Shown: positions 18,836 through 35,714 of the stretch, piece by piece
Layout of the letters: each line of letters opens with the position of its first letter
How positions within the stretch are numbered: position 1 is the first letter of the stretch
Origin: Mycolicibacterium sp.
Lineage (GTDB): Bacteria; Actinomycetota; Actinomycetes; Mycobacteriales; Mycobacteriaceae
Assembly: GCA_020637165.1 (NCBI GenBank)
Contig: JACJWN010000006.1
Span: forward strand, 62,001-126,000
DNA length: 64,000 nt
Reading direction: 5' to 3'
The notes under the pieces: generated by a model
Seen by the model: the letters and a program-made list of their open reading frames with translations, nothing else
The model's database searches: none
What the model was told of the DNA's origin: nothing
Position numbers and translations under genes: made by a program

Positions 18836-19870
18836 TCAGGCCCGGTTCGGGTCCTCCCCGCTCGCCCGCCCGGCGGCGCTGTGGTCCAGGGAGAACGAAT
18901 CCTCATCCCATTCCCGCCCCAACAATCGCGCAGACATCGACGATGCCCGGGCGGCACACGAGTAGTACAGGCTGGGCAGCAGCCCGGCCTGTAGCAAGGC
19001 GTTGGGGATGAAACCGTTGAAGCAGATCATCTCGTCGGTGTAGACGTAGCTGCCGAACCCGTAGCCGGCCGGAGTCTCTGCGAGGTCGGCCCGGTTGAAA
19101 TCCAGGGCGAGCCTGCCGCCGTCCTCGGCGGGCATGGGGTGCGGGAAACGCTGGACGATGAGCAATCCGTTGCCGTAGAGCGGATGCGACTGTTCGCCGA
19201 TGAACTGGCACAGCGAGGAGGCATCGCCGTAGGGGAACTCAACGGTCAGCCCGAGCCCGCCGCTGGTGGCCCCCACCGACGGCGGCCGCATCATGGAGCC
19301 GGCGACCGCGTCGTCGAAATCCTCCTCCGAAAGCCGCAACGGTTCGGAACCCGTCTCGACGAACATCCGAGCAGCAAACGCCATATCGTCGGGCTCCTCG
19401 CGAACCCCCCGATCCGGGTGGCCGCTGACGGCCGGTCGCGCCCCGAGCGCCTCGGCGAGCTTCGGGCCGAAGATCTGCGCCTCCCCGAGTTGCAGCACCG
19501 CCGCCGAACTGAGCAGGATCCCCATCCAGGAAGCGATCTCGTCGTGCACGCGAGCCAGCGAGCACAGGCTCACCGTCCCGGCGTCGGCGTCATAGACCGG
19601 CCCGGACATCGAGGCGAACCGCATCGGCCCCTCGTTGAGTTCGGCCACCGCGGCGTCCGTCAACTCCAGATCCGCGAGCATCTCGGTGCGCACGCCGACC
19701 AGGTAGCCGGTCATACCGTCGGGCCCGGCCTCGCGGTCCAGGATCTCCACGGTCTGCGCGTTGCCGGCGGCCCACCAGGTGAATCCGTTGGGGGTTTTCA
19801 CCGCCCAATCCTCATCGACCTGCAACTGCTGACCGTAGAGGAAGTCGAGGACCTTTTCGCCGGCGTTCAT
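18836..19870 (-). CDS. Uncharacterised 344-aa cytoplasmic protein
   Basis: A soluble protein without signal or transmembrane segments. Its N-terminus (MNAGEKVLDFLYGQQLQVDE) is followed by WAVKTPNGFTWWAAGNAQTV, VGVRTEMLADLELTD and a C-terminal FGSYVYTDEMICFNGFIPNALLQ, a mixed alpha/beta pattern with conserved-looking Trp/Gly positions. I recognise no family. The ATG at 19870 is chosen; another in-frame ATG lies 5 codons upstream. It follows the coiled-coil membrane gene (19905-20873) by 34 bp, so the two probably form an operon that continues from, but is separate in function from, the signalling genes upstream. Confidence 0.6.
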   Translation of the reverse strand: MNAGEKVLDFLYGQQLQVDEDWAVKTPNGFTWWAAGNAQTVEILDREAGPDGMTGYLVGVRTEMLADLELTDAAVAELNEGPMRFASMSGPVYDADAGTVSLCSLARVHDEIASWMGILLSSAAVLQLGEAQIFGPKLAEALGARPAVSGHPDRGVREEPDDMAFAARMFVETGSEPLRLSEEDFDDAVAGSMMRPPSVGATSGGLGLTVEFPYGDASSLCQFIGEQSHPLYGNGLLIVQRFPHPMPAEDGGRLALDFNRADLAETPAGYGFGSYVYTDEMICFNGFIPNALLQAGLLPSLYYSCAARASSMSARLLGREWDEDSFSLDHSAAGRASGEDPNRA

Positions 19871-19904
19871 GGACCCACGGTACAAGCGGCGGACGACGGA
19901 GCAC

Positions 19905-20929: not shown

Positions 20930-21952
20930 TCACCCCCAACGGTCGACCAGATCACGCATCCCCGGGCCGATGCGGTTGTAGCAGACGATCCGGATATCCA
21001 GGCCGGCGTCGGCGACAATGCCGAGCGCGCGGTCGATCGCGCCGTCGATCCACTCGTCAGCGTTGCCGAAGGCGCCCCCGCCGAGCCGGGTGAGCAGCAC
21101 CGTGTTGGAGCCCCCGGCCTCGGCCTGTTCGGCCGCGGCCAGCAGGGTCGCCTCGTAGGCAGCCTCCAGCACGAGGCGGGCGAACACCCCGTACTCGCTC
21201 CGGGACAGCCCGGAGTACGAGACGGGAAGCGCTGAGCAGAACGCCTGGGACACCAGCCGCCGCTCCCCCGCCCCGGCATCAGCGATCGGAACGCCGGTGA
21301 CCTCCACATCGCGGTGCAGCCCGATGGCCAACCGGCCGCGAACACCGTCGAGCCGTTCCTCCGGCGCCCCGTCGAGCAGGTCGCTGATCGCCCTCAGCCC
21401 CTCGCGGGTGCACAGCGCGTAGCCGTTCTGCATCCGCCACAGCGCCTCGACGGGCAGCCCGGTCAGCTCCGACAGCGCCGCGCCGACACCGGCCAGCCCG
21501 TCGAGCTGGCGCCCGCTGCGCTGTCCGATGCCGTCACCGACCGGCACCAGATAGTTGCGGTAGATGGTCGCCGCGCCGGCCGCCATCGCACAGGCCGGCC
21601 CCTGGGTGGGGTCGCCGGCGTAGCGGGCGACCCCGTGCTCGGGGGTGATCCGCTCGGACACCATCTCCAGCAGGTTGAACTGCGAGGCCACCTGGAACAG
21701 CGCGCCGGCATAGGCCGGCTCGGCGTGCAGCGCGCGGACATCGCCGACCAGCGCACCGAACGAACTACGCCGGCCGCGAGCGGGATTCACCCGCGCGCGC
21801 AGTTCGTCCAGGGTCGGCAGGGTCAGCCACCCAATGCCGTAGCGCCGGCCGTTGACGGTCGAGACGAGTTCCGCACCGTCGACCCGCAGCCGACTCTGGG
21901 TGGTTTCGTAGTCGCCCTCGGCGAACCCGGTGAGTCGTTCGAACCAGTCCAT
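20930..21952 (-). CDS. Macrodomain/PARG-like conserved protein
   Basis: A 340-aa soluble protein. ASQFNLLEMVSERITPE, DPTQGPACAMAAGAATIYRN and the C-terminal VLLTRLGGGAFGNADEWIDG are strongly conserved in a family that I recall from bacteria, plants and protists. The VLLTRLGGGAFGN segment with the following helix (AIDRALGIV) resembles the ADP-ribose-binding loop of macrodomains and poly(ADP-ribose) glycohydrolases, so ADP-ribose binding or hydrolysis is a reasonable inference, not a demonstrated activity. The start overlaps the phosphatase stop as TGAGATG, implying translational coupling. Neighbouring genes are a phosphatase, a NUDIX ADP-ribose-type regulator and an ADP-ribosylglycohydrolase homologue. 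Confidence 0.6.
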   Translation of the reverse strand: MDWFERLTGFAEGDYETTQSRLRVDGAELVSTVNGRRYGIGWLTLPTLDELRARVNPARGRRSSFGALVGDVRALHAEPAYAGALFQVASQFNLLEMVSERITPEHGVARYAGDPTQGPACAMAAGAATIYRNYLVPVGDGIGQRSGRQLDGLAGVGAALSELTGLPVEALWRMQNGYALCTREGLRAISDLLDGAPEERLDGVRGRLAIGLHRDVEVTGVPIADAGAGERRLVSQAFCSALPVSYSGLSRSEYGVFARLVLEAAYEATLLAAAEQAEAGGSNTVLLTRLGGGAFGNADEWIDGAIDRALGIVADAGLDIRIVCYNRIGPGMRDLVDRWG

Positions 21953-21953
21953 C

Positions 21954-22508
21954 TCAGGCCTCCCGTCGTCGTGCGCGGCGGCGAAGAACGTTGTGCTGTT
22001 CCTCGGTGTCCGGGACCGGATGGTGGGCCTTGCGGGTGCCCGACCGCAGTTCCTGCATCCGGTCGATCACTTCCGGGTAGCCCAGCCCCTCCTCGTCGAT
22101 GAGCCAGGCGCCCACCACGGTTCCGGTGCGGCCCTTACCGCCCCAGCAGTGCGTCAGGACCACCTTGCCCGCCGCGATCTCGGCACGAATGTGGGCCAGG
22201 ATCCTGTCGTAACCCTTGTCGTCGATGACCGAGGTGTCGGGGATGGCGAAGCGCCGGTAGCCGACAGCGGGTTCCAGCAGCCGGGCGTAGGGAAGCATCG
22301 GCGTGCCGTCCCAGGTCGGCTCGCCGGCCTCGGTGAGGTCGACGAACGAGGACACTCCGGCGTCCTGAAGAACCCGCAGCTTCCGCAGCGCCTTCCCCGG
22401 TTCCTTGGCGCCCGGGTATTCCGTGGCGAGCAGCCGGCCCGGGATCACCCAGTAACCGTGGATGAGCCGGTCGTGCGGCCAGGGCGCCGTGTTGTTGTGT
22501 TCGGTCAT
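21954..22508 (-). CDS. Protein tyrosine/dual-specificity phosphatase-like protein
   Basis: A 184-aa cysteine phosphatase. The active-site P-loop is VLTHCWGGKGRTGT, i.e. CX5R(T) with Cys121 and Arg127, and the general acid is in an IPD loop (FAIPDTSVID, Asp91). The N-terminal WVIPGRLLATEYPG and KLRVLQDAGVSSFVDLTE match the start of DSP-like phosphatases. It would hydrolyse a phosphoester, perhaps on a small molecule such as a phosphorylated ADP-ribose derivative rather than a protein, given its neighbours. The ATG at 22508 follows AAGGGGGAGAATC. It lies 53 bp after the helix-turn-helix gene and is coupled to the macrodomain-like gene by TGAGATG. Confidence 0.85.
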   Translation of the reverse strand: MTEHNNTAPWPHDRLIHGYWVIPGRLLATEYPGAKEPGKALRKLRVLQDAGVSSFVDLTEAGEPTWDGTPMLPYARLLEPAVGYRRFAIPDTSVIDDKGYDRILAHIRAEIAAGKVVLTHCWGGKGRTGTVVGAWLIDEEGLGYPEVIDRMQELRSGTRKAHHPVPDTEEQHNVLRRRARRREA

Positions 22509-22561: not shown

Positions 22562-23311
22562 TCACCGCTCGCTGCGGGACAGTTCCGCCAACACCCCTTG
22601 CAACTGCTGCGGGGTCAGGGTGCCGCGGCGGTAGGCCGACCAGGCCATCGCCCGCAACATCGGCACCGTGAACCGCCGCCGCCCGCCCTTGCCGAACCGG
22701 ATGGGCTCCACTTCCGATCCGTCCGCGTAGCGGAACACTTTCTGCCGCAACCCCCGTGACACCCACGCCGCAGACTTGCCGAAGCACAGCGCGGCCTGCG
22801 CGGTGCTGAAGTATTCCTCCTCGATGCCGCCGGACGCCTGCTGCGCCAGGGCCGCCTCGATCTCGCTGCCGAGGGCGTGCATGCCGGCGGCGGCCATCGC
22901 CGCGTCGTCGAGTGCGAAGACCGCCCTGACCTCGGTGCGCAGGGCGGCGTCGACCTCGTTGATCCCGCCCTGCACCGGGCAGGGCGACAGTTCCGGGCCG
23001 AGCAGCAGATCCAGTCCGTGGCGCTGCAGGGTCAGGCCCAGCCGGCGCAGGTGCTGTTCGCGGCAGAGATCCTGCAGCCAGAACGGCACCCAGATCGGAG
23101 TGCGGCTCGCGATCGCGGTGCCCAACGCCTCAACAACCTCCTCGACGTCGGTGAGGTCGTCGTGCTGAGCCGCCGTCCCGGTCGGGAAAGCGAACGTCTG
23201 AGTGATCACCGCGCCGCGCTCGGTGGCCTTCTCAGCCAGTATGTCCAGTCGCTTCGAGGTGTCGACGTCGCCGAGTAGGTAGACGTCATATGTGGTGCCG
23301 ATGTCGTTCAT
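22562..23311 (-). CDS. Uncharacterised protein with C-terminal helix-turn-helix (paralogue 2)
   Basis: A 249-aa paralogue of the protein at 2646-3431, with the same domain order: an unassigned N-terminal domain (VYLLGDVDTSKRLDILAEK, RTPIWVPFWLQDLCRE, LRRLGLTLQRHGLDLLLG), a shorter linker, and a winged-HTH-like C-terminus (TAQAALCFGKSAAWVSRGL, GKGGRRRFTVPMLRAMAWSA). The middle linker is about 10 residues shorter than in paralogue 1. The ATG at 23311 follows GGGGGG; an upstream in-frame ATG at 23362 is rejected. It is the first gene of the operon with the phosphatase and macrodomain-like genes and is divergent from the NrtR gene. It may be the operon's own regulator; a sensor role of the N-domain is inference. 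Confidence 0.7.
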   Translation of the reverse strand: MNDIGTTYDVYLLGDVDTSKRLDILAEKATERGAVITQTFAFPTGTAAQHDDLTDVEEVVEALGTAIASRTPIWVPFWLQDLCREQHLRRLGLTLQRHGLDLLLGPELSPCPVQGGINEVDAALRTEVRAVFALDDAAMAAAGMHALGSEIEAALAQQASGGIEEEYFSTAQAALCFGKSAAWVSRGLRQKVFRYADGSEVEPIRFGKGGRRRFTVPMLRAMAWSAYRRGTLTPQQLQGVLAELSRSER

Positions 23312-23500
23312 GATCCCCCCGTCGTTTCGTTGGTGATGGGTGTCGTTGGTGATACCGACCAAGCCCGTCAGCTGATTTTGTAGCGATTAACGCATAGCTA
23401 TATTTATTTCTCTGCGCGTCATAATTGCGATGTTGATCCTGTTGCGCGACAAACTAATCCATCCGGACAAGGCGAGGATATCCCTGGCCACCGACAAAAA
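23312..23500. promoter_or_regulatory. Divergent promoter region of the NrtR and HTH-phosphatase-macro operons
   Basis: A 189-bp AT-rich intergenic region between two divergent starts. Two direct repeats, TGCGCGTCA at 23413-23421 and TGCGCGACA at 23443-23451, are 30 bp apart (three helical turns). A short palindrome ATAGCTAT lies at 23394-23401. CATAAT near 23419 could serve as a -10 hexamer for the + gene. NrtR regulators usually bind the divergent region they sit beside, so operators are expected here, but the site identity is inferred. Confidence 0.5.
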
Positions 23501-24150: not shown

Positions 24151-24525
24151 TCACCGGAACGCCCCATCCGAGGTCTCGTGCCGCCGGGCGAGTTCCAGCG
24201 GTGAGTCCCCCCGCGGTTCGAACCACTGGCAGCCCAGGCAGGCGGCGTGGCTCACGGTCGGCACGGCGTCGAGGACGACCCCGGGATGCCGTGACGGCCA
24301 GCAGTGCGGGTCCGGCCCGAACACGCTCTCGTAAACCCGACGAAGGTGTTCGCGCTGCTCCCAGAATCGCCGGGCGATGTTGACCCCGGTCGAGCCGCGC
24401 TTGAAGTTGATCCACGCGGTCACCTCGCCGGGGGTGAAGATGGCGTCCCAATACGGCCCCCAGGTGCCGCCGGCCCCGGCCGACCACTGCGTGGACGGCC
24501 GCCGCGGGCCCTGGTTGAAGCTCAT
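24151..24525 (-). CDS. Uncharacterised 124-aa protein coupled to the ARG-phosphatase gene
   Basis: A small soluble protein. Its ATG at 24525 overlaps the stop of the upstream ARG-phosphatase gene (ATGA) and has AAGGAAG in front. Aromatic-rich stretches (GTWGPYWDAIFTPGEVTAW, FWEQREHLRRVYESVFG) surround a central region, and a CLGCQW motif near residue 100 could bind metal or be redox active. No family is recognised. Strong translational coupling suggests it works with the upstream pseudoenzyme. The stop is 12 bp from the convergent NrtR stop. Confidence 0.65.
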   Translation of the reverse strand: MSFNQGPRRPSTQWSAGAGGTWGPYWDAIFTPGEVTAWINFKRGSTGVNIARRFWEQREHLRRVYESVFGPDPHCWPSRHPGVVLDAVPTVSHAACLGCQWFEPRGDSPLELARRHETSDGAFR

Positions 24526-25925
24526 CGGTTCTTCCTTTCGCCGGAGGGATGCAGGCGACGCAGCGCCGCCCGGAAGTCGGGGTTGGGATCGGCGCCGGGA
24601 AGCACCCCGCATACCTCGGCCAGCGCCTGATCGACGTCGATGCCGGCCCTACGGGCACCGTAGAGCGCGGCAACGGTCGCAGTTCGGCCGTCTGCGGAGG
24701 CACCGTGCAGAAACACCGTGGCACTCTCGTCCCGCAACGCCTCGATGGCCCGAACGGTGTCGAACAACACGAAGTCGAGGTTCTGGTTCGCGCCGAATTG
24801 ATCGATGAAACGAACCTCGAGATCGCGTAACCCCACCGGGACGTCGGCATCGACGACCGGACACAGCGAGACCACCGCGTCGATGCCCCGGGGCAGTTTC
24901 TGCAACCACCCCCTAGCTCCGAGTCGCACCCCGCCGTCCCGCGGATGCCGCCGGGGCGGCGGGAGGTCGCACCACGATTCGCAGGAATTGACGCGGTCGG
25001 GTTCCCCGTCGTGGAGGGTCTTGGAGCCCAGATTCGCCAGGCCCCTGATGTCCAGGCCCGGCCATCCCCGCAGTTCCGTTCGCCAGCGCCAGGGCAGCGC
25101 GGAGACTCCGTGGGCCGCTCCCAGCAGGCCCCCTGCGATCGTGGCCACCGCGGTGGCGTCCCCGCCGCCACGCACCGCCTCCTCCAGCGCCAGTCGCAGA
25201 TGGTCGGCGGCGAACACCCCGTTGGCCGGATCGTCGGCGGGCACCGGGGTGGCGGCGATGGCGGACCACGCACCCTGCAGTGCTCCGGCAGGTTCGGCGT
25301 TGACCTCGGCGAAGTCGGACGGTCGCGACCGCTCGGCCTCGGCGATCCGCCGCCCCCAGAGGACAGCCCGCTCGGAGTCGATGAGGCCCAGGCCGATTCG
25401 CGCGTCGAGCCGCCCGGTCAGGACCGCGTTCCGGATGGCCAGGCACCACAGCACGCAAGCATCTGCGGCCTCGGGGTCGGCGTGGGTCAGCGTGCCGATC
25501 CGTCGGGCAGCTTCCACAAGTCCGGCCTCGTCGTGGAGGTTGGCCAATGCCACCGGAGCGGTGCGCGCCAGCGATGTGTTGGTCGAGGGCCGCGTGCGGC
25601 CAAGCGCTGCGGCGGCCTCGCGGGCGCTGCGCGCAGTGAGTTCGGTCTCAGTGGCAGCCGAAAGGATCTCGGCCACAACGGGATCGACATCGGGAGCGCT
25701 GCGGGCCCACCAGGCCCACCGCTGAACGATGTAGTCCTGATGCTCCTCGGCACACAAGTCCGCCCCTTCGCCCGCGATTTCGGCGATCGCCAGTGCCATC
25801 GCGATGTTGCCGTTCCACACCCTCGGTGGGCGAGCGCCGAGGGTGTCGCCGGCGGCGCTGCCGGCCAGCACGCCGATGGCGCGGTCAATCTCACGATCAG
25901 TGGGCTTTGTCTGCAGTGCAGGCAT
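24522..25925 (-). CDS. ADP-ribosylglycohydrolase-like / phosphatase-like fusion with missing catalytic residues
   Basis: A 467-aa protein in two parts. Residues 12-290 align by pattern with ADP-ribosylglycohydrolases (GVLAGSAAGDTLG, RGGGDATAVATIAGGLLGAA), and residues 330-467 with DSP-type phosphatases (VVSLCPVVDADVPVGLRDLE, VFLHGASADGRTATVAAL). The fusion is known in actinobacteria. Here the family's first metal motif (usually SDDT/TDDT) reads WNGN (37-40) and the loop before it is shortened; the second metal motif DxDT reads DATA (256-259); and the phosphatase Cys is Gly408 (HGASADGRT, His407 and Arg414 kept). The frame has no internal stop. A ligand-binding pseudoenzyme is therefore more likely than a pseudogene. 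It is the first gene of an operon with the 124-aa protein. Confidence 0.75.
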   Translation of the reverse strand: MPALQTKPTDREIDRAIGVLAGSAAGDTLGARPPRVWNGNIAMALAIAEIAGEGADLCAEEHQDYIVQRWAWWARSAPDVDPVVAEILSAATETELTARSAREAAAALGRTRPSTNTSLARTAPVALANLHDEAGLVEAARRIGTLTHADPEAADACVLWCLAIRNAVLTGRLDARIGLGLIDSERAVLWGRRIAEAERSRPSDFAEVNAEPAGALQGAWSAIAATPVPADDPANGVFAADHLRLALEEAVRGGGDATAVATIAGGLLGAAHGVSALPWRWRTELRGWPGLDIRGLANLGSKTLHDGEPDRVNSCESWCDLPPPRRHPRDGGVRLGARGWLQKLPRGIDAVVSLCPVVDADVPVGLRDLEVRFIDQFGANQNLDFVLFDTVRAIEALRDESATVFLHGASADGRTATVAALYGARRAGIDVDQALAEVCGVLPGADPNPDFRAALRRLHPSGERKNR

Positions 25926-26191: not shown

Positions 26192-26608
26192 TCAGGAGGA
26201 CGCTGCGGGCGGAAGCTCGACGCGGCATCTGACTCCGGGCACTTCGGCCAGCCGCCGGTCCAGCGTCACGAGCGGAACATCAAGCGCCTCGGCGAGTGCG
26301 ACATAGGCGGCGGCATAGCTCGAAAGGTTCTTCTTGAGCTGCCAAATACGCTGTGCGAGAACTTCATAAGGAAAAAACGCTATCGGCAGATCAGTGAGGT
26401 CGGCGTGGGCTTGGGCGGCTTGATCCGGACTGATCAACCCGCTGAGTTCGTGGAGCCGAAAGACATTCGAACACTCGAAAGCCAACAAAGCCGGGGCGTA
26501 CAGTTCGGCCGACTCAAGCCGTCGGGCCAGCCAGGTGCCACTTTCCCCGGCGTCCAGCAGGACGGCGACGACGGCTGAGGCGTCGACAACCAATCGAGCT
26601 GCATTCAC
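26192..26608 (-). CDS. vapC: VapC-type PIN-domain toxin
   Basis: A 138-aa PIN ribonuclease. The acidic cluster needed for Mg2+ is present: Asp in LVVDASAVVAVL, Glu in LAFECSNVF, and Asp residues in YVALAEALDVPLVTLDRRL. Toxins of this type cleave specific RNAs and stop growth. The ATG at 26608 overlaps the antitoxin stop at 26605 (ATGA), the usual order of antitoxin then toxin. Target RNA unknown. It sits 266 bp upstream of the ADP-ribosylglycohydrolase-like gene. Confidence 0.9.
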   Translation of the reverse strand: MNAARLVVDASAVVAVLLDAGESGTWLARRLESAELYAPALLAFECSNVFRLHELSGLISPDQAAQAHADLTDLPIAFFPYEVLAQRIWQLKKNLSSYAAAYVALAEALDVPLVTLDRRLAEVPGVRCRVELPPAASS

Positions 26609-28473: not shown

Positions 28474-28614
28474 CCGGGGCGGGGCCAGATTTCCCGTTCG
28501 CCGGGATGCCCCGTTCACCGGATCGCAGGGGCGCCAGAGCAGCCGTCGACTATCAGCAGCTCCGGCGAGGACCTCGACCGCTGGGTGGATCAGGACATCG
28601 AACCTGGTGGCTGA
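28474..28614 (+). pseudogene. Possible decayed VapB antitoxin remnant
   Basis: The reading frame that ends in TGA at 28612-28614, overlapping the GTG of the vapC gene as GTGGCTGA, encodes EDLDRWVDQDIEPGG at its end, which looks like the C-terminus of a VapB-type antitoxin. The frame opens just after a stop at 28471-28473 and contains no ATG, GTG or TTG, so it cannot start on its own. The upstream part may have been removed when the ERCC4 gene or a rearrangement came next to it. Low certainty. Confidence 0.35.
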
Positions 28615-29008
28615 GACGTCGACCGGGTTACTTGACACATCCGTGGTCATTGATCTCGGTGTCATAGCGCCGGGGTTGCTGCCAGACCAGGTCTCCGTCA
28701 GCGCCGTTACGTTGGCCGAGCTTTCTGCAGGCACTCACGCTGCCGACGATCCCGCCGAGCGAGCGCGACGCCAAGACCGGCTGCAACAACTTGAGTCATG
28801 GGTGGAACCTCTGGCGTTCGACGGCGACTGTGCACGGGCGTACGGGCGGATTTATGCCGCGGCACTGACCGCCGGTCGTCAACCCCGCCGGCGCGCGGTC
28901 GATCTTCTCATCGCTGCCACCGCGTTGGCGGCGGGCCTACCGCTTTACACCCGCAACATCGAGGACTTCGGAGGCCTTGAGGACCTCCTCACCGTGGTAG
29001 CCGTCTGA
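28607..29008 (+). CDS. Orphan VapC-type PIN-domain toxin
   Basis: A 133-aa PIN protein. Conserved acidic positions are in GLLDTSVVIDLG (Asp), TLAELSAGTHAA (Glu), and AVDLLIAATALAAGLPLYTR with NIEDFGGL (Asp). The start is GTG at 28607, with no full antitoxin gene upstream. If expressed without antitoxin it should be toxic, so it is either silent, rescued by another antitoxin in the genome, or inactive. It is divergent from the ERCC4-Lsr2 gene and converges on the Wadjet operon. Confidence 0.82.
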   Translation: MAETSTGLLDTSVVIDLGVIAPGLLPDQVSVSAVTLAELSAGTHAADDPAERARRQDRLQQLESWVEPLAFDGDCARAYGRIYAAALTAGRQPRRRAVDLLIAATALAAGLPLYTRNIEDFGGLEDLLTVVAV

Positions 29009-29059: not shown

Positions 29060-30274
29060 CTAGCGCCGAGCGGGCGAAATGCGCTGGCCCGGACTCATTC
29101 TTCCGTGCCGGCTCCGGCCCCCCGGCAGCCGTTGCCTGGCCCACTGCCAGTCGATGCGCTCCTGTTCCAGCCGCACCCCCTCGCCCAGGGCGTCACTCAC
29201 CAGTTCGGCGTAAAGGTCCCGCTCATCGGGGTTCAGCCGCGCCAGCACCGCGGCGGTCGGGCGGTCTTCGCCCACCCAGCGATCGCGGTGGGCCAGCAGT
29301 GTCTCGCGGTCCATCAACACCGAGCGCGCCTGAGGCAGCCGGGCCCGCAGCCGGTCAAGGATCGCGAATCCGTGGGTGTCGATATCGCCCCAGTAGAGGA
29401 CGTCGGCGTCTGCCAGCCAGGGCAGCCGGCCGGCGGCGTCGACGTCGAATCCCCTCCCCCAGATCACCACCCCGTCGTCGGGGACCTCGACGGACAGGTA
29501 GGTGGTCTCGTTCTCGACGATGACCGCGAAGCGCGGCGCGAGCGCCAACTTCGCCAATTCGCCTTCCCTCACGGCGATTTCGGTCAACGGTTCGGGCAGG
29601 CCCAGGGACCGCGCCGGACGCAGCCGGATCAGCGTCGGCTTGTTCCGCAGGCCCAGGCCGGCCAGGAACGCCGGGGAGGGCGACGGCACCCCCAGCATCG
29701 CGGCCAGTACCGGCCGGTGCCGCTCGGCGAATTTGGTGTCGACGCCGGGCGCGCTGATCTCGCGCAGATAGCGCTGCGAGCCGCGGTGGGCGTCGAGCCA
29801 CTCGTAAGCGGCGATCACCTGGGGCATGACGGGTTCCAGCGCGATGGCGCGATGCGGGTTCTCCACGATCCACCGCCGCACCGCCGGGTGGCCCTGCGCC
29901 AAGTCCAGCAGTGCGTCGAAGCGGCGCACCGCCGCAGCCGTACCCAACAGCGCCCACGCCTGTTGCACCGAAGACACCACAGCCCGGACCGGAAGCCGGT
30001 TGCGACCGATCTGCCGTCCGCCGATCGTCTGCCACACCAGGCTGTAGCGCCGATCGCCGCGCCGCCCTGCGTCCAGGGCGGCGACCCAGTCCCGCACGGC
30101 GGTGATGTCGTCGCCGATCTGGGAGGGCGTGGGCCCGCGCAGCGGCACCTCGATGGGTTCGAACGGGCCGCCGCCGGCGTGTTCGCGCAGCAGCGAACCG
30201 TCGTCCCAGCGCCGCTTGACCTTGGCGGCGATGTCCTCGGGTGTGGCCCAGCCCGCCTTCGTCCGAGGGCTCAC
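29060..30274 (-). CDS. jetD: Wadjet protein JetD (DUF3322/DUF2220, Toprim-like nuclease subunit)
   Basis: A 404-aa homologue of the Wadjet nuclease subunit (MksG/EptD). The C-terminal Toprim-like domain shows YWGDIDTHGFAILDRLRAR near residue 292, with the DxD needed for metal-dependent cleavage; the N-terminal part (EDIAAKVKRRWDDGSLL, ALLDLAQGHPAVRRWI) is the DUF3322 region. Wadjet systems recognise and cut circular plasmid DNA after loop extrusion. The GTG at 30274 overlaps the jetC stop (GTGA), so jetC and jetD are translationally coupled, and the last gene of the operon ends at 29060. The C-terminus is basic. Confidence 0.9.
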   Translation of the reverse strand: MSPRTKAGWATPEDIAAKVKRRWDDGSLLREHAGGGPFEPIEVPLRGPTPSQIGDDITAVRDWVAALDAGRRGDRRYSLVWQTIGGRQIGRNRLPVRAVVSSVQQAWALLGTAAAVRRFDALLDLAQGHPAVRRWIVENPHRAIALEPVMPQVIAAYEWLDAHRGSQRYLREISAPGVDTKFAERHRPVLAAMLGVPSPSPAFLAGLGLRNKPTLIRLRPARSLGLPEPLTEIAVREGELAKLALAPRFAVIVENETTYLSVEVPDDGVVIWGRGFDVDAAGRLPWLADADVLYWGDIDTHGFAILDRLRARLPQARSVLMDRETLLAHRDRWVGEDRPTAAVLARLNPDERDLYAELVSDALGEGVRLEQERIDWQWARQRLPGGRSRHGRMSPGQRISPARR

Positions 30275-33200
30275 GGCCTGCGTCCGTCGCGCTGACGCCG
30301 GTATTCCTCGATCGTCATGGTCTGCAGCCGGGAGAACTGACCGGTGGGGTTGTCGACGATGCCGATCGCCTTGACGTAGGGCTCGATGACGTGGACCTTC
30401 TGCAGCGGAGTGACGATCAGCAGCTGTAGGCCGAGGGTGGCGAACAGTTCCAGCGCGTAGCGGGTGGAGACGTCCGAGCCGCGGCCGAAGGCCTCGTCGA
30501 TGACGGCGAAGCGGAAGTCGCGAGACTGTGCGACGCCCCACTCCAGACCGAACTGGTAGGCCAGCGAGGCCGCGAGGATCGTGTAGGCCAGCTTCTCCTT
30601 CTGCCCGCCGGACTTGCCGTCGGAGTCGCTGTAGTGCTCCCACTCGGCATCGGTCTCGACATCGCGTTCGGAGGCGGAGAACATGAACCAGTTGCGCACG
30701 TCGGTGACCCGCCGGGTCCAGTTCTTGTCCGACTCGGCGTAGCCGTCGCGGCCGCGGAAGCGCTCGATGATCCGCTTGACGTCTAGGAAGCGCTGCTCGG
30801 AGTACTGGTCGCCGTCGAGGGCGAGGCTGTCATTGGTGAGGTTGCGCAGATCCGAACGGAACTGCGCCACATCGGTGTTGGAGGTGGGTTCCTTCTCCAG
30901 CCGGATGTAGCGTCCAGGGTTGTACGGCACCGCGCCGAGTGCCTCGTTGATCCGGTTGACCCGCTCGTCGATGGCGGCGGCCTGGCGCAGCAGCCAGTTG
31001 TTGAACCCGGCCAGTTCCTGAATGGCGTTCTTGTTGAGCTGCTCTTTGAACTCAGCCTCGAAACGCGGCAGATCGTCGGTGGCCACCCGGTCCCGGAAGG
31101 CCCGGAACTCCCGGCGCGAATCGATACTGGCGTCCATGTCGGCGCGGGTCTCGGGCCAGCGGGTGAGGAAGGCGCCCATCTGGACGACCATGCTCTGGCC
31201 CAGGCCGGTCAGCTTGTGGGAGAGCCGCTCGATGCGGCCGTGCAACTCCTCGGCGAGGCTCTTCTCCACCTGGTCGTACTGTGCGGCCTGGGTGGGACGC
31301 TTCGTGCCGAGACGCGCGTCGAGAGCCGGATAGGCCGCGCGAGCGGCGGCCAATTCCGCTGCCGACCGGGCGGCGACGAATTGGTCGTCGGCGCTCTTGT
31401 CCCGCTCGGCGCGCTGGGTGGCCTCCTCGGTGGTGGCCAGCCGGCCGGTGAGTCGCTCGATCTCCGCCGTCACGGCGGCCGCGCGTTCGGCGTTGCGCTC
31501 CAGCGCGTAGGTGATCTCCTCCAGCCGGGACGAGCCGGCCGTCAGACGCTCACGCTCCGCGTCGTATCCGGCCGCGCGGGCCAGCGCCTCGTCGACGTCC
31601 AGATCGTCCCAGGACGGGAAGGACTCCAGCCGTGCCAGCGATTCCGCCTTGGCCTGCAGCACATCCCGCTGAGCGCCGAGGTCGGCCAGATCGGCGGCCA
31701 CGGCGGCGCGGCGATCCTCCAGTTCAGCGAGCTCGGCGCGCAGCGCGGCCATCTTGCGCTCGTTGGCCCAGCCGAGCACCCAGCGGCGGGGGTCGTCGAC
31801 GCGGTGGCGGTCGTCCTTCTCGTGGCGGTCACCGGAACGCACTTGGCCCTCACGGGTGACCGCGCGGCGTTGGCCGCGGAATTCCTCCAGGCTCGCGGCG
31901 CATCGGTAGTCGGCCCTTTTGGTGAGCTCGTCGGTCAGATAATCACGGAACGGGCCGTCCTTGACGTCGATGCAGTCGGCGAGGAGCAGTGCTCCGGGTT
32001 CGGCGGGCTGGAGCCGAACCCGTTGCCGCGCAACCCGTTCGTAGACCAGCCGGGCTCCCACCTGCCGGCCGCCGCGCCCGGCGACGGTGAGCCGACGGCC
32101 GTTCACCCAGCCGGTGACGGAGTCGTAGTGCTGTTGGGGAACCAGCAGGGACAGGGCGAACCCGCGCAGCACCCGTTCGGCCGCGCCGCGCCACTGGGAG
32201 TGCTCGTCGTGCACGTCGAGCAGTTCCCCGGCATAGGGCAGGTCTTCGGGTGTCAGGCCGAGCGCGGCGCACAGTTCGGCCCGGATCTCGACCTGTTCGG
32301 CGGGCAGGTTGCTGGTGCGCTGCTCCAGGCTGGCCAGTTCGGCGGCGATTGCCTCGGTGGTTCGGCGCAACTCACCGTCCCGCCCGATCGCCTCGTGGTA
32401 GCGGCCGTCCAGGGCCCGCCGCTGCTCGGCCAGCCGCGGCCGCTCGGCCGCCACCACAGCCGACAGGGCCGTGAAATCACTCTGTCCGGCAACCGATTTC
32501 AGACCGGCGGCAGCAACGGCGGCGTCGAACAGGGTGCGGGATTGCCGGCGTTTGCCGGCCTGTTCCCGGGCCTCGCGGGCCAGCCGCTCCAATTCCCCGA
32601 TCCGGTCGCCCCCGGCCCTGGCCCGCTCCTCTATGAGCGACTCTCGTTCATCGGCGAGGTGCCGCTGGTCTGCCTTGGCGGCGTCCTGCTCGGCGTGCAG
32701 GGCGGCGCCCGCTGCGCGCAGTGCGGCGATCTCCTCGGTCAGCAGCGCGGATCGGCGCTCGGCGACGAAGAGCCGCACCGCGCCGCGTTCCCGCTCCAGC
32801 TCGCCGCGCTGCGCCAGCGCGGAGTCGTACTTCTCGGCGGCGGCCACCACCGGATCGAGCGCTTCGAGTTGTTCGCGGGCCCGTTTCACCGCGTCGTGGG
32901 CCTTGGTGAGGTCCTCGAAGTGGGTGATGATGTCGCGTACCCGTTGTGTGCAGTCGCTGGGCTCGAGCATGTGGTCGCGGACGAAGTCGTTGAGGTTGCC
33001 GACGGACTTCATCGAGACGGTCTGGTGGAACAACTCCAGCGCCTGCTCGGAGCGGACGCCGAGCAGGCGGCGCAATGACGTCGCGTATTTGGGAAACTCG
33101 TCGAAGATCTCCGCCCCGCCGGCGCGTAGGCGCTTGCGCAGATCGCGAAGGTCGGTGCCGAAGTCGGCGAACTCGGTGGCGATCGACAGCGCCTTGGTGG

Positions 33201-33669
33201 CGGTGACGTAGAAGCGGTAGGGCTGCCCGGTGCTCTCGCGCTGCTGGAACACCTGGGCCAGGGTGACGGTCTCGTTGTAGCCGTGGTTGACGAACACCCC
33301 GAGAATCACCGAGAAGGTGCGCCGGTTCTCCCGCAGGCCCTTGGCCCGCGAACGCCCGGTGGTCTCGATCCGTTCGGATTTGTAGTGGCCTTCGACGTAG
33401 GAGCGCAGCGTGCGCTCTCGGGCGTCGGCCCCGGCGGCCTTGTTGTAAGCGGCTTTGTGGGCCGGCATCAACAAGGTGGTCAACGCATCGACGATGGTCG
33501 ACTTGCCTGAGCCGATGTCGCCGGTCAGCAGCGCGGTGTCGGTGCCGGGGGTGAACCGCCACACCAGTTCGTCGAAGGTGCCCCAGTTGCGCACCTCGGC
33601 GTACTGCAGCCGGTAGCCGGCCCGCGGCGAGGTGCCGAGTTCAACGGCCGAGAACAGCCCGTCACTCAT
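30271..33669 (-). CDS. jetC: Wadjet SMC-like ATPase JetC
   Basis: An 1132-aa MukB/SMC-type ATPase. Walker A is GDIGSGKST (residues 50-58), the ABC signature is KSGGQKEKLAY near residue 1020, and Walker B is FAVIDEAFGRGSD near 1056. Between them lie long coiled coils (e.g. residues 250-330 and 690-760, rich in ERE/RAR repeats) and a hinge-like region near 490-540. With JetA and JetB it should form a loop-extruding complex that senses small circular DNA. The start overlaps jetB by 8 bp and the end overlaps jetD (GTGA). The mycobacterial counterpart is EptC, described as limiting plasmid maintenance in M. smegmatis. Confidence 0.93.
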   Translation of the reverse strand: MSDGLFSAVELGTSPRAGYRLQYAEVRNWGTFDELVWRFTPGTDTALLTGDIGSGKSTIVDALTTLLMPAHKAAYNKAAGADARERTLRSYVEGHYKSERIETTGRSRAKGLRENRRTFSVILGVFVNHGYNETVTLAQVFQQRESTGQPYRFYVTATKALSIATEFADFGTDLRDLRKRLRAGGAEIFDEFPKYATSLRRLLGVRSEQALELFHQTVSMKSVGNLNDFVRDHMLEPSDCTQRVRDIITHFEDLTKAHDAVKRAREQLEALDPVVAAAEKYDSALAQRGELERERGAVRLFVAERRSALLTEEIAALRAAGAALHAEQDAAKADQRHLADERESLIEERARAGGDRIGELERLAREAREQAGKRRQSRTLFDAAVAAAGLKSVAGQSDFTALSAVVAAERPRLAEQRRALDGRYHEAIGRDGELRRTTEAIAAELASLEQRTSNLPAEQVEIRAELCAALGLTPEDLPYAGELLDVHDEHSQWRGAAERVLRGFALSLLVPQQHYDSVTGWVNGRRLTVAGRGGRQVGARLVYERVARQRVRLQPAEPGALLLADCIDVKDGPFRDYLTDELTKRADYRCAASLEEFRGQRRAVTREGQVRSGDRHEKDDRHRVDDPRRWVLGWANERKMAALRAELAELEDRRAAVAADLADLGAQRDVLQAKAESLARLESFPSWDDLDVDEALARAAGYDAERERLTAGSSRLEEITYALERNAERAAAVTAEIERLTGRLATTEEATQRAERDKSADDQFVAARSAAELAAARAAYPALDARLGTKRPTQAAQYDQVEKSLAEELHGRIERLSHKLTGLGQSMVVQMGAFLTRWPETRADMDASIDSRREFRAFRDRVATDDLPRFEAEFKEQLNKNAIQELAGFNNWLLRQAAAIDERVNRINEALGAVPYNPGRYIRLEKEPTSNTDVAQFRSDLRNLTNDSLALDGDQYSEQRFLDVKRIIERFRGRDGYAESDKNWTRRVTDVRNWFMFSASERDVETDAEWEHYSDSDGKSGGQKEKLAYTILAASLAYQFGLEWGVAQSRDFRFAVIDEAFGRGSDVSTRYALELFATLGLQLLIVTPLQKVHVIEPYVKAIGIVDNPTGQFSRLQTMTIEEYRRQRDGRRP

Positions 33670-34252
33670 CGCCGCCTCCCGTGACGCCCTCTGCTCCGGC
33701 GTACTCGCGCAGTTTGGCCGCGAAGTTCGACAGCGTCTGGGCGTCGACGTAGGCCTTGAGGATCCGCCGCACCTCCCAGTGGTCGTTCTGGCCGCGCAGC
33801 GCCCTCAGGAAGCCCAGCTCGGCGGCCTTCCTGATCGTCGTCTCGGCCTGGTCGACCACGCGGGCGTCATTGCTGGATTCGGCCTGGAACAGCCGCAGCA
33901 TCTCGACGATCTGGTCGGTGGTGAGCACCAGCCGGCCTTCGGCGCCGGTGGTCTCGAACTCCATGAGCCGCTTACGCAGCAGCACCAGCAGCAGGCTGAC
34001 GTTGTAGGTCAGGGCGCGGCGGCGCACCAGCCGTGGCAGCGCCTCCTCGCCCTCCTCGACCGGCCGGGACCGTAGGTAGGCGTAGCCCTCCACGTCGTCG
34101 TGCACCACGTCCACGCCGATCGTGGCGAAGTGGTCGCGCACCCCTGCGCCCAGGCGTTCCAGCGTCAGCCAGGTGTCCTCGTCGGTCTCGCGATAGACCA
34201 CTCCCTGCATCAGCCGGATGATCGCCGCGGCCACTGCGTGGTCGTTGCTCAT
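33662..34252 (-). CDS. jetB: Wadjet protein JetB (DUF4194, KITE-like)
   Basis: A 196-aa homologue of MksE/EptB. DUF4194 pattern: AIIRLMQGVVYRETDED, YAYLRSRPVEEGEE and SLLLVLLRKRLMEFETTG, a tandem winged-helix KITE fold, then RRILKAYVDAQTLSNFAAKL at the C-terminus. In Wadjet it bridges the kleisin and the SMC heads. The stop lies inside the jetC start (8-bp overlap). It follows jetA by 25 bp. Confidence 0.9.
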   Translation of the reverse strand: MSNDHAVAAAIIRLMQGVVYRETDEDTWLTLERLGAGVRDHFATIGVDVVHDDVEGYAYLRSRPVEEGEEALPRLVRRRALTYNVSLLLVLLRKRLMEFETTGAEGRLVLTTDQIVEMLRLFQAESSNDARVVDQAETTIRKAAELGFLRALRGQNDHWEVRRILKAYVDAQTLSNFAAKLREYAGAEGVTGGGDE

Positions 34253-34277
34253 CGGCTCTTCCTCGCCCGCCCGTTCC

Positions 34278-35714
34278 TCACTGCCGCCGTACCGTCACCT
34301 TCGGCAGCCTGGCCCGCCGGGTGATGTCCGGGTCGGCGGGGTCGGGGTAGTCCAGCACGGTCTCCTCGGCGGGGTCCATCTCAACGGACACGTCCTCGTC
34401 GGTGAGGGTGAGGTAGCCGACGATCTCCGCAGCGCCCTGTTCGATCGGATTCAGGGCGATGACGTCGGAGAGCAGTGCCGAGGAGTTCGCCGGCAGTGCG
34501 GAGCGGATCACCTCGGCCAGGCGCGCCTGGTCGATGAAGGTCTGGGTGAACAACAGATCGGTGTCGACCTGCTCGGTGGCGGTGGCGATCACGCTCTCCA
34601 CCGCCACCGCCGCGGGGGTCTGATACAGCGGGCGTTCGAAGGGCAGCGCGATCTCGATGCCGGGTAGGTCAACCTCCAGGCCGAACGGCGGCGGGGCCTC
34701 GCGTAGGTCCAGGGCCAGACCCTCCACGGTCCGCACCAGTTCCAGCACCCGCCGGTTCTCCATCCACACCTGGTCGTCGAGGAAGCGGCGCAGCTGCTCG
34801 GAGATCTGCCGAACGGTGTGCTGGGCCCGGTCGGCGGCCTCGGACCAGTCGTTGTGGATGCCGCGGATCCGACGGTCCGCATCGACGGTGTCCAATGCCG
34901 AGACCTTGGCCAGCAGCTCGGCCAGTTCGCTCTGGCGGGCCTCGGACAGCAGGAAGTCGTAGAAGGCCTGGAAGCTGCGGCCCTGGTCGGAGCCGGCGAT
35001 CTGGGAGCGGCTGCCCACCAGGTCTGCCAGCAGGTCACCCTTGGAACCCTCCCAGCCGGCGATCTTCTCCCGGGCGGCGCGGTCGAGCAGCCGGAAGTTC
35101 TCCTCCACCTCGCGGAAGTCGGAGAGCAGTTCGCGGGCGGTGGTCGAGAGCTGTTGGTAGCGGTCGCGGACCCCGGTCGGGTCCAGCACCGTCACCACAC
35201 CGGATTCCACGGCAGCGATCTCCGCGTCGATCTCGGCGCGCCGGCGGTGCAGTTCGGCCAGCCGGGCTTCCGGTGCGGCCTCGGTGCCGTGCACGATCTG
35301 ACGCAGCAGCTCCACCACAATGTGCAGGCGGGATTCGGTGCCCACGAACGCGCGGCCCTGCAGGGAGCCGACCCAGGCGTAGGCCTTCTCGAAGGCGGGG
35401 GTGACCTCGTAGTGGACCTCGTCGTCACCGGCCGGGTAGAACCGGCGCAGAAATCCCGTGCCCGCCCAGTCCTCCAGATAGGCGCGAGGTTCCTTGGGGA
35501 AGCGCTCGTCCCCCGACCCGGTGGGATCCTCGCCGTTCAGGGCGTACAACTCATCGTCGAGGGCATCGGCCAGACGGCTGGCCGGGCAGGCGCCGCGGTT
35601 GGCTTCGACGAAGTAGCGGCCGAGGAAGGACAGGATCAGCGTGGCATTGCCGGCGCGCAGCAACCGCCAGCCGGGGTGGCGTTCCCTCAGGGCGTCGACG
35701 GCGGCGTAGTCCAC
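34278..35714 (-). CDS. jetA: Wadjet protein JetA (DUF3375, kleisin-like)
   Basis: A 478-aa homologue of MksF/EptA. DUF3375 features: HPGWRLLRAGNATLILSFL, YLEDWAGTGFLRRFYPAGDD, VTPAFEKAYAWVGSLQGRAF with the internal GTESRLHIVVELLRQIVHGT, and a long helical middle (FREVEENFRLLDRAAREKI). As the kleisin-type subunit it joins the JetC heads. The start is a GTG at 35714, 35 bp after the acyltransferase stop, so the operon's transcript may begin upstream of that gene. No stronger start is near. Confidence 0.88.
   Translation of the reverse strand: MDYAAVDALRERHPGWRLLRAGNATLILSFLGRYFVEANRGACPASRLADALDDELYALNGEDPTGSGDERFPKEPRAYLEDWAGTGFLRRFYPAGDDEVHYEVTPAFEKAYAWVGSLQGRAFVGTESRLHIVVELLRQIVHGTEAAPEARLAELHRRRAEIDAEIAAVESGVVTVLDPTGVRDRYQQLSTTARELLSDFREVEENFRLLDRAAREKIAGWEGSKGDLLADLVGSRSQIAGSDQGRSFQAFYDFLLSEARQSELAELLAKVSALDTVDADRRIRGIHNDWSEAADRAQHTVRQISEQLRRFLDDQVWMENRRVLELVRTVEGLALDLREAPPPFGLEVDLPGIEIALPFERPLYQTPAAVAVESVIATATEQVDTDLLFTQTFIDQARLAEVIRSALPANSSALLSDVIALNPIEQGAAEIVGYLTLTDEDVSVEMDPAEETVLDYPDPADPDITRRARLPKVTVRRQ

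Follow-up and report, generated by a model that had tools for sequence, protein, structure and literature searches.

The fusion gene and its catalytic motifs

The window, i.e. the whole stretch of 64,000 nucleotides analysed here, comes from Mycolicibacterium sp. (contig JACJWN010000006.1, positions 62,001 to 126,000). It carries a gene whose product joins an ADP-ribosylglycohydrolase (ARH) domain to a dual-specificity phosphatase (DUSP)-like domain; a small gene that we call P2 overlaps the end of this gene (Table 1). As the initial annotation had stated, the fusion is one intact frame that runs from an ATG start through 467 codons to a TGA, with no internal stop. The ARH part matches Pfam ADP_ribosyl_GH (E=1.3e-24, residues 32-279), and the match to DSPc over residues 365-456 is weak (E 0.021, under its cut-off). 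The fold of the structure model is intact and confident (pLDDT 93.1, pTM 0.93) and resembles ARH and DUSP structures, with the best match to 6drh, an ARH chain whose partner in a toxin/immunity pair is an ADP-ribosyltransferase. The protein shares 52-57% identity with intact mycobacterial fusions (alignment A1). It thus has the fold and profile of the ARH/DraG family and the fold of the cysteine phosphatases, but not what marks the active enzymes. NGNI and DATA stand at the TDDT and DxDT metal site, the conserved Glu is missing together with its loop, and the HCx5R nucleophile is Gly408 instead of Cys.

The alignments refine the initial annotation at several points. It had equated WNGN with TDDT; the loss of this metal motif is upheld, but the counterpart is NGNI, and the W ahead of it corresponds to the one conserved in WTDDT. 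The second metal motif, DATA, is changed as claimed, but it is not wholly lost since the first Asp of DxDT is retained. The claimed replacement of the phosphatase nucleophile by Gly408 is borne out, within a motif (HGASADGR, residues 407-414) that retains Arg414. A further loss had been overlooked: about 25 residues of the intact homologues between GDxLG and W37, including the conserved YEF and its Glu, are deleted. NGSLMR has also become NTSLAR, and NGWVV has become NAEPA. Among the seven residues given as critical for ARH3 in the available text of PMC9738213 (Glu41, Thr76, Asp77, Asp78, Asp314, Asp316 and Thr317), Asp314 alone has an apparent equivalent in the window fusion, if the Glu of YEF corresponds to Glu41. 

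To measure these changes against general divergence, we took 80 columns conserved at 97% or more across 126 relatives considered intact (116 distinct sequences, including L078, which has Tyr for the Cys). The window fusion is changed at 8/10 catalytic columns versus 14/70 other conserved columns (Fisher p=3e-4). Near-identical copies in two other species, G257 and G182, change 8 catalytic plus 13 other and 8 plus 14 columns, respectively, and the intact rows show a mean of 0.56 changes over the 80 columns (maximum 16). The catalytic losses exceed chance, because the catalytic columns are changed more often than the other conserved ones. As read from the alignments, the catalytic residues of both the ARH and the phosphatase domain are lost.

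Such a protein could still be a ligand receptor, its dead domains binding ADP-ribose or a phosphorylated ligand and reporting the binding. Asp27, Asn116, Arg121, His148, Asp256, His407 and Arg414 are indeed retained, and STYX, with the same Gly for Cys according to the available text of PMC8269279, is named a serine/threonine/tyrosine-interacting protein in that of PMC8907265. However, six of the seven critical ARH3 residues appear to lack a counterpart (Glu41 by the correspondence made above). We consider this explanation unlikely. The initial annotation had proposed a receptor or scaffold. The scaffold part, as a partner of P2, fits better; reception of ADP-ribose seems less likely, because little of the pocket is left once the Glu loop and the metal ligands are lost.

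Sister species, locus erosion and selection

The genus was surveyed in two sets of 297 and 396 genomes, with one genome per species. In the larger set, the orthologues of G257 (87% identity) and G182 (85%) share NGNI, the loop deletion and HG with the window fusion, and have DGAA where intact fusions have DTDT. All three members of this trio have an open frame of equal length without a stop. The initial annotation had named intact orthologues in close relatives, together with relaxed selection on this copy, as what would count against it. The 396 genomes yielded no close orthologue with intact motifs, the next best match having 58% identity; this match and those ranked after it carry intact motifs. 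Relaxation, about threefold, is present.

The three loci are syntenic. Each carries the full fusion and the full P2, while the neighbours of this pair are damaged in the sister genomes. The protein P6 is fragmentary there (102 residues in G257; 28 and 79 residues in G182) and the separate phosphatase has no match at either locus. The DUF7229 gene and 84 residues of the regulator are missing from the G182 locus, and at the G257 locus JetA, JetB and nearly all of JetC are without match.

Maximum likelihood (ML) estimates of omega (dN/dS) for the fusion are 0.21, 0.23 and 0.30 in the three trio pairs. The bootstrap intervals of the NG86 estimates (0.23-0.43, 0.24-0.45 and 0.28-0.63) all lie below 1, and both parts are below 1 by ML (ARH 0.20-0.50, phosphatase 0.16-0.20). 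P2 is tightly constrained (0.04, 0.07 and 0.11). Other genes of the locus also have lower values than the fusion (W18.8 about 0.06, W27.4 0.05-0.07, JetD 0.09-0.10), as do two estimated from a single pair (W36.7 0.06, DUF7229 0.12); about equal or higher values were obtained for PIN (0.22-0.33) and the regulator (0.39, one pair).

These data bear on whether the gene is simply in decay, both active sites having been lost by chance and the frame not yet broken. The looser omega of the fusion relative to intact fusions, P2, W18.8, W27.4 and JetD, the erosion of the locus in the sister genomes and a broken related copy in G085 are all in line with decay. In addition, the frame stays open in 0.5-7.5% of neutral simulations, so that the open frame by itself says little about constraint. 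Against decay stand the omega intervals below 1 in all three pairs, the identical length in three species, the tight conservation of P2, and the catalytic columns being changed far more than other conserved columns. Decay is therefore rather improbable: constraint on the trio fusion is real but relaxed. The earlier claim of a pseudoenzyme kept as an intact gene is thus sustained by the two orthologues with the same losses, by omega below 1 and by the sparing of the pair amid damaged neighbours, as well as by the confident fold and by other copies in the genus that lack the motifs.

Other motif-less fusions

Copies were collected from the 297 genomes at E up to 1e-10 and from the 396 genomes at E up to 1e-60. 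Among the 102 fusion copies tallied (101 of 400 or more aligned residues, and L175 with 384), 94 keep all motifs and eight do not; L134 failed the motif pattern solely through its YTDDT reading. The tally covers neither 23 short rows (ARH-only genes or fragments) nor the ARH-only L189, which was fetched; seven short places of the 297-genome survey and the ARH-only G323:C9 of the 396-genome survey were not fetched. A wider pattern scan covered the best 80 of 236 relatives (594 matches). Because of this selection, and because the patterns require near-intact motifs, the scan under-represents dead copies from outside the genus.

The eight are the trio and one copy each in G016, G331, G385, G315 and G133. 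At the positions of TDDT, DTDT and HCx5R, the G016 copy has AGGT, STEE and HALLGTGH; G331 has IGGT, no DTDT and HSMHARNR; G385 has SANT, DSAA and HGLRATSR. G315 has TADT and HDWTVTNR but keeps DTDT, and G133 has TGDT and keeps the Cys, with much of the C-terminal half of its ARH domain deleted. Changes are concentrated at the catalytic columns in G385 (7/10 vs 15/70, p=0.0035), G016 (9 and 27, p=0.0027) and G331 (8 and 17, p=0.001). The G016 fusion (L185, 8818-10317) is the most eroded dead copy, yet its 499-codon frame remains open and overlaps P2. No close orthologue of the G385 dead copy was found in the 396 genomes at E up to 1e-140. Retention across species is demonstrated for the trio only.

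The dead copies also speak to the idea that the fusion has kept enzymatic activity, through a remodelled active site that performs another chemistry. NGNI and HG are identical in all three trio species, which would fit such a site. However, the replacements vary among the dead copies (NGNI, SANT, AGGT, IGGT; Gly, Asp, Ala or Ser for Cys), and no new motif common to those compared was seen. We regard a rebuilt enzyme as very improbable.

In a tree with the catalytic columns masked, the trio groups with L190a and L197 (support 93) beside the intact L006 and L009 (90), and L185 and L188 form a second dead group (98). When the dead copies are added to the tree singly, L190a, L197 and L188 fall beside the intact L004 (81, 55 and 77), L185 falls within seven intact fusions, five of them with P2 (67), and the trio lies near the base in a weak position. 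Two firmly independent origins of the dead copies were considered and rejected, as the placements shift and a single origin is not rejected either; we claim no figure for the number of origins. Nor does pairing with an intact paralogue explain the dead copies in general: an intact fusion is also present in G016, G385, G133 and G315, but G000 (94% complete) has one ARH locus. Matches on plasmids (32 records, 25 from Streptomyces) are all below 60% identity, and those in phages (11 Streptomyces phages) lie mostly across the ARH part. The intact L017 and L022 fusions exceed 700 codons, with an extra terminal stretch that looks ankyrin-like by eye.

The overlapping gene P2

The downstream gene described in the initial annotation is confirmed as coupled, its start overlapping the stop codon of the fusion as ATGA. 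P2 has no match in Pfam, NCBIfam, PADLOC or PHROG, and 27 copies occur in 25 of the 396 genomes. It directly follows (0 to about 200 bases between the genes) 7/8 motif-less fusions versus 6/94 intact ones (Fisher 7e-7). The association persists with the trio counted once (p=3.5e-5), and when two intact loci with the regulator between fusion and P2 are added to that count (p=9.5e-5). All seven dead fusions followed by P2 overlap it, by 4 bases in six and by 8 or 14 in L197, depending on the start. The overlap as such was rejected as a mark of dead copies, as two of the six intact fusions followed by P2 (L004 and L021) overlap it too. Other placements are a second P2 in G263, one beside the broken fusion in G085 and one at a contig end in G032. 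The P2 tree groups the trio with G032 (84) and G331 with G016 and L222 (94), deeper nodes being weak.

Neighbouring genes

Table 1. Features of the fusion locus, in positions of the window.
Feature	Position	Strand	Basis or remark
ARH-phosphatase fusion, putative pseudoenzyme, 467 aa	24522..25925	-	open reading frame, Pfam, alignment, structure model
ARH domain part, residues 1-290	25056..25925	-	
Junction of residues 32/33, site of the missing ~25-residue loop	25829..25830	-	alignments
NGNI, residues 38-41, replacing TDDT	25803..25814	-	alignments
DATA, residues 256-259, replacing DTDT; first Asp retained	25149..25160	-	alignments
Dual-specificity phosphatase-like domain, residues about 322-463	24537..24962	-	
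HGASADGRT, residues 407-415, replacing HCx5RT	24681..24707	-	alignments
P2, 124 aa, CxxC and following His	24151..24525	-	ATGA overlap with the fusion
NrtR-like Nudix and winged-helix regulator, convergent with P2	23501..24139	+	Pfam NrtR_WHD 1.6e-11, NUDIX 1.8e-08
DUF7229 protein	22562..23362	-	Pfam 1.2e-20
Separate DSP-PTPase-kind phosphatase, HCWGGKGRTG	21954..22508	-	Pfam PTP-SAK 1.3e-12, Tc-R-P 5.5e-11
P6, protein without Pfam match	20930..21952	-	also beside the G331 dead copy

A homologue of the NrtR-like regulator is found at 62/105 fetched loci, some of which are the same gene twice. Compared with the Nudix box consensus, the canonical box is absent from the window regulator by eye, and since it is absent the protein may serve as a sensor and not as an enzyme. 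P6 is 67-69% identical to its homologue at the G331 dead-copy locus (L188, 5031-6080), with QVASQFNLLEMVS and GPACAMAAGAATIYRNY as common stretches. As to the TY-chaperone, ARPP or Macro genes that accompany ARG-centric systems (see below), neither P6 nor the 18836-19885 protein gave a Pfam match, with E values up to 10 admitted, and the best PDB match of P6 by sequence has E 0.13. An assignment of P6 as Macro domain or ARPP was dropped, the resemblance finding no backing in Pfam. In G016 the gene after P2 encodes a calcineurin-like phosphoesterase, as does the gene after the intact, second fusion of G385. The neighbourhood of the G331 dead copy includes a weak vWA match (E 0.066, under its cut-off). 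PIN-domain genes were seen at 26192-26608 (Pfam) and 28607-29008 (by eye). A Wadjet-like operon adjoins the locus at 29060-35714, with JetC and JetD identified by PADLOC and JetA and JetB named by position.

ARG-centric systems are expected to have no linked ADP-ribosyltransferase or sirtuin; a scan of nine proteins encoded between 18836 and 26608 gave neither. Another possible role is immunity by occlusion, in which the fusion would bind and block an ADP-ribosyltransferase and hydrolyse nothing. The structural match to 6drh points in this direction. The immunity protein of 6drh/6dre has only 20% identity to the fusion and pairs with a transferase toxin, for which the scanned neighbours offer no counterpart. 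Occlusion seems improbable. The immunity protein is presumably the one named Tri1, which reportedly also blocks its ADP-ribosyltransferase by occlusion.

Proposed role of the fusion

Taken together, the fusion probably works by binding something and not as an enzyme. Our best explanation, held with moderate confidence, is a pseudoenzyme kept for binding, most likely as a scaffold or regulatory partner of P2. Its ARH domain has lost the metal ligands, except one Asp, as well as the Glu loop, and in its phosphatase domain Gly replaces the nucleophilic Cys. The CxxC/His pattern of P2 suggests a bound metal. The pair may act in response to ADP-ribosylation, though not by removing ADP-ribose; for example, the fusion could bring P2 to modified proteins, or hold P2 inactive.

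Several observations weigh against this explanation. By YN00, omega is about threefold higher in the trio fusion (0.24-0.31) than in intact fusions of similar protein divergence (0.04-0.16 in 29/30 rows, 24 distinct pairs). The G257 and G182 assemblies are incomplete (83-84%). No catalytic excess is found in G315 (2 and 12, p=0.56) or G133 (4 and 15, p=0.18), which are therefore partial cases. The approximately unbiased (AU) test, run with 5000 replicates, below the program's recommendation, does not reject one origin of all five dead lineages (p=0.366 vs 0.634). The P2 association is not significant (p=0.14) when all dead P2-linked copies count as one event. P2 also follows some intact fusions, and 9/27 P2 copies have no fusion inside the fetched 1.5 kb flank.

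A wider and more tentative possibility is that mycobacteria have repeatedly made the ARH-phosphatase fusion, core enzyme in a defence based on ADP-ribose, into an adaptor, a dedicated carrier or inhibitor of P2, after its coupling to P2. Once coupled, both catalytic sites would have become dispensable or been selected against. The five P2-linked dead lineages (trio, G385, G315, G016 and G331) could then be stages of one path, with G315, where DTDT and the loop are still there, as the earliest.

Relation to known systems

Iyer et al. (2022, PMC9503650) predicted ARG-centric antiviral systems in which, in the text available, the ARH part frees ADP-ribose from phage-modified host proteins. Like these, the window locus is actinobacterial, with ARH and a rhodanese-type phosphatase in one polypeptide, a Nudix-HTH regulator and further phosphatases. 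The fusion with a phosphatase of the cysteine type and a nearby regulator of the Nudix or WYL type, here Nudix, are what is expected of such a system. The regulator, the separate phosphatase, the phosphoesterase in G016 and G385 and the weak vWA match in G331 all fit the systems as described in that text; in G315, nothing of this kind was seen among the four neighbours scanned. Alignment and gene context show the origin of the window fusion to be among the ARH-phosphatase fusions of these predicted systems. However, the published model depends on ADP-ribose removal, whereas both catalytic sites of the window fusion are lost and release of ADP-ribose is not to be expected from it. In the main text of PMC9503650, as far as available, 'inactive' is used once, for TIR-class domains, and 'pseudoenzyme' does not appear. 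No description of a dead ARH-phosphatase fusion was found in the literature searched, mostly open-access and without preprints.

ADPRHL1/ARH2 is likewise an ARH member without catalytic residues that has a biological role, but it is a vertebrate heart protein, and no phosphatase part is mentioned in the available text of PMC10601310, PMC7390403 and PMC9738213. The STYX pseudophosphatases likewise have Gly for the nucleophilic Cys of HCx5R; unlike the window fusion they are human proteins, and no ARH fusion is mentioned in the available text of PMC8269279. The pseudo-ARH and pseudophosphatases compared here are thus, in these sources, animal proteins. If our explanation is correct, a bacterial protein dead in both domains and kept across species within a predicted antiviral ADP-ribose system would suggest that systems of this type can act by binding alone, and the fusion with P2 would be a simple two-gene pair in which to test it.
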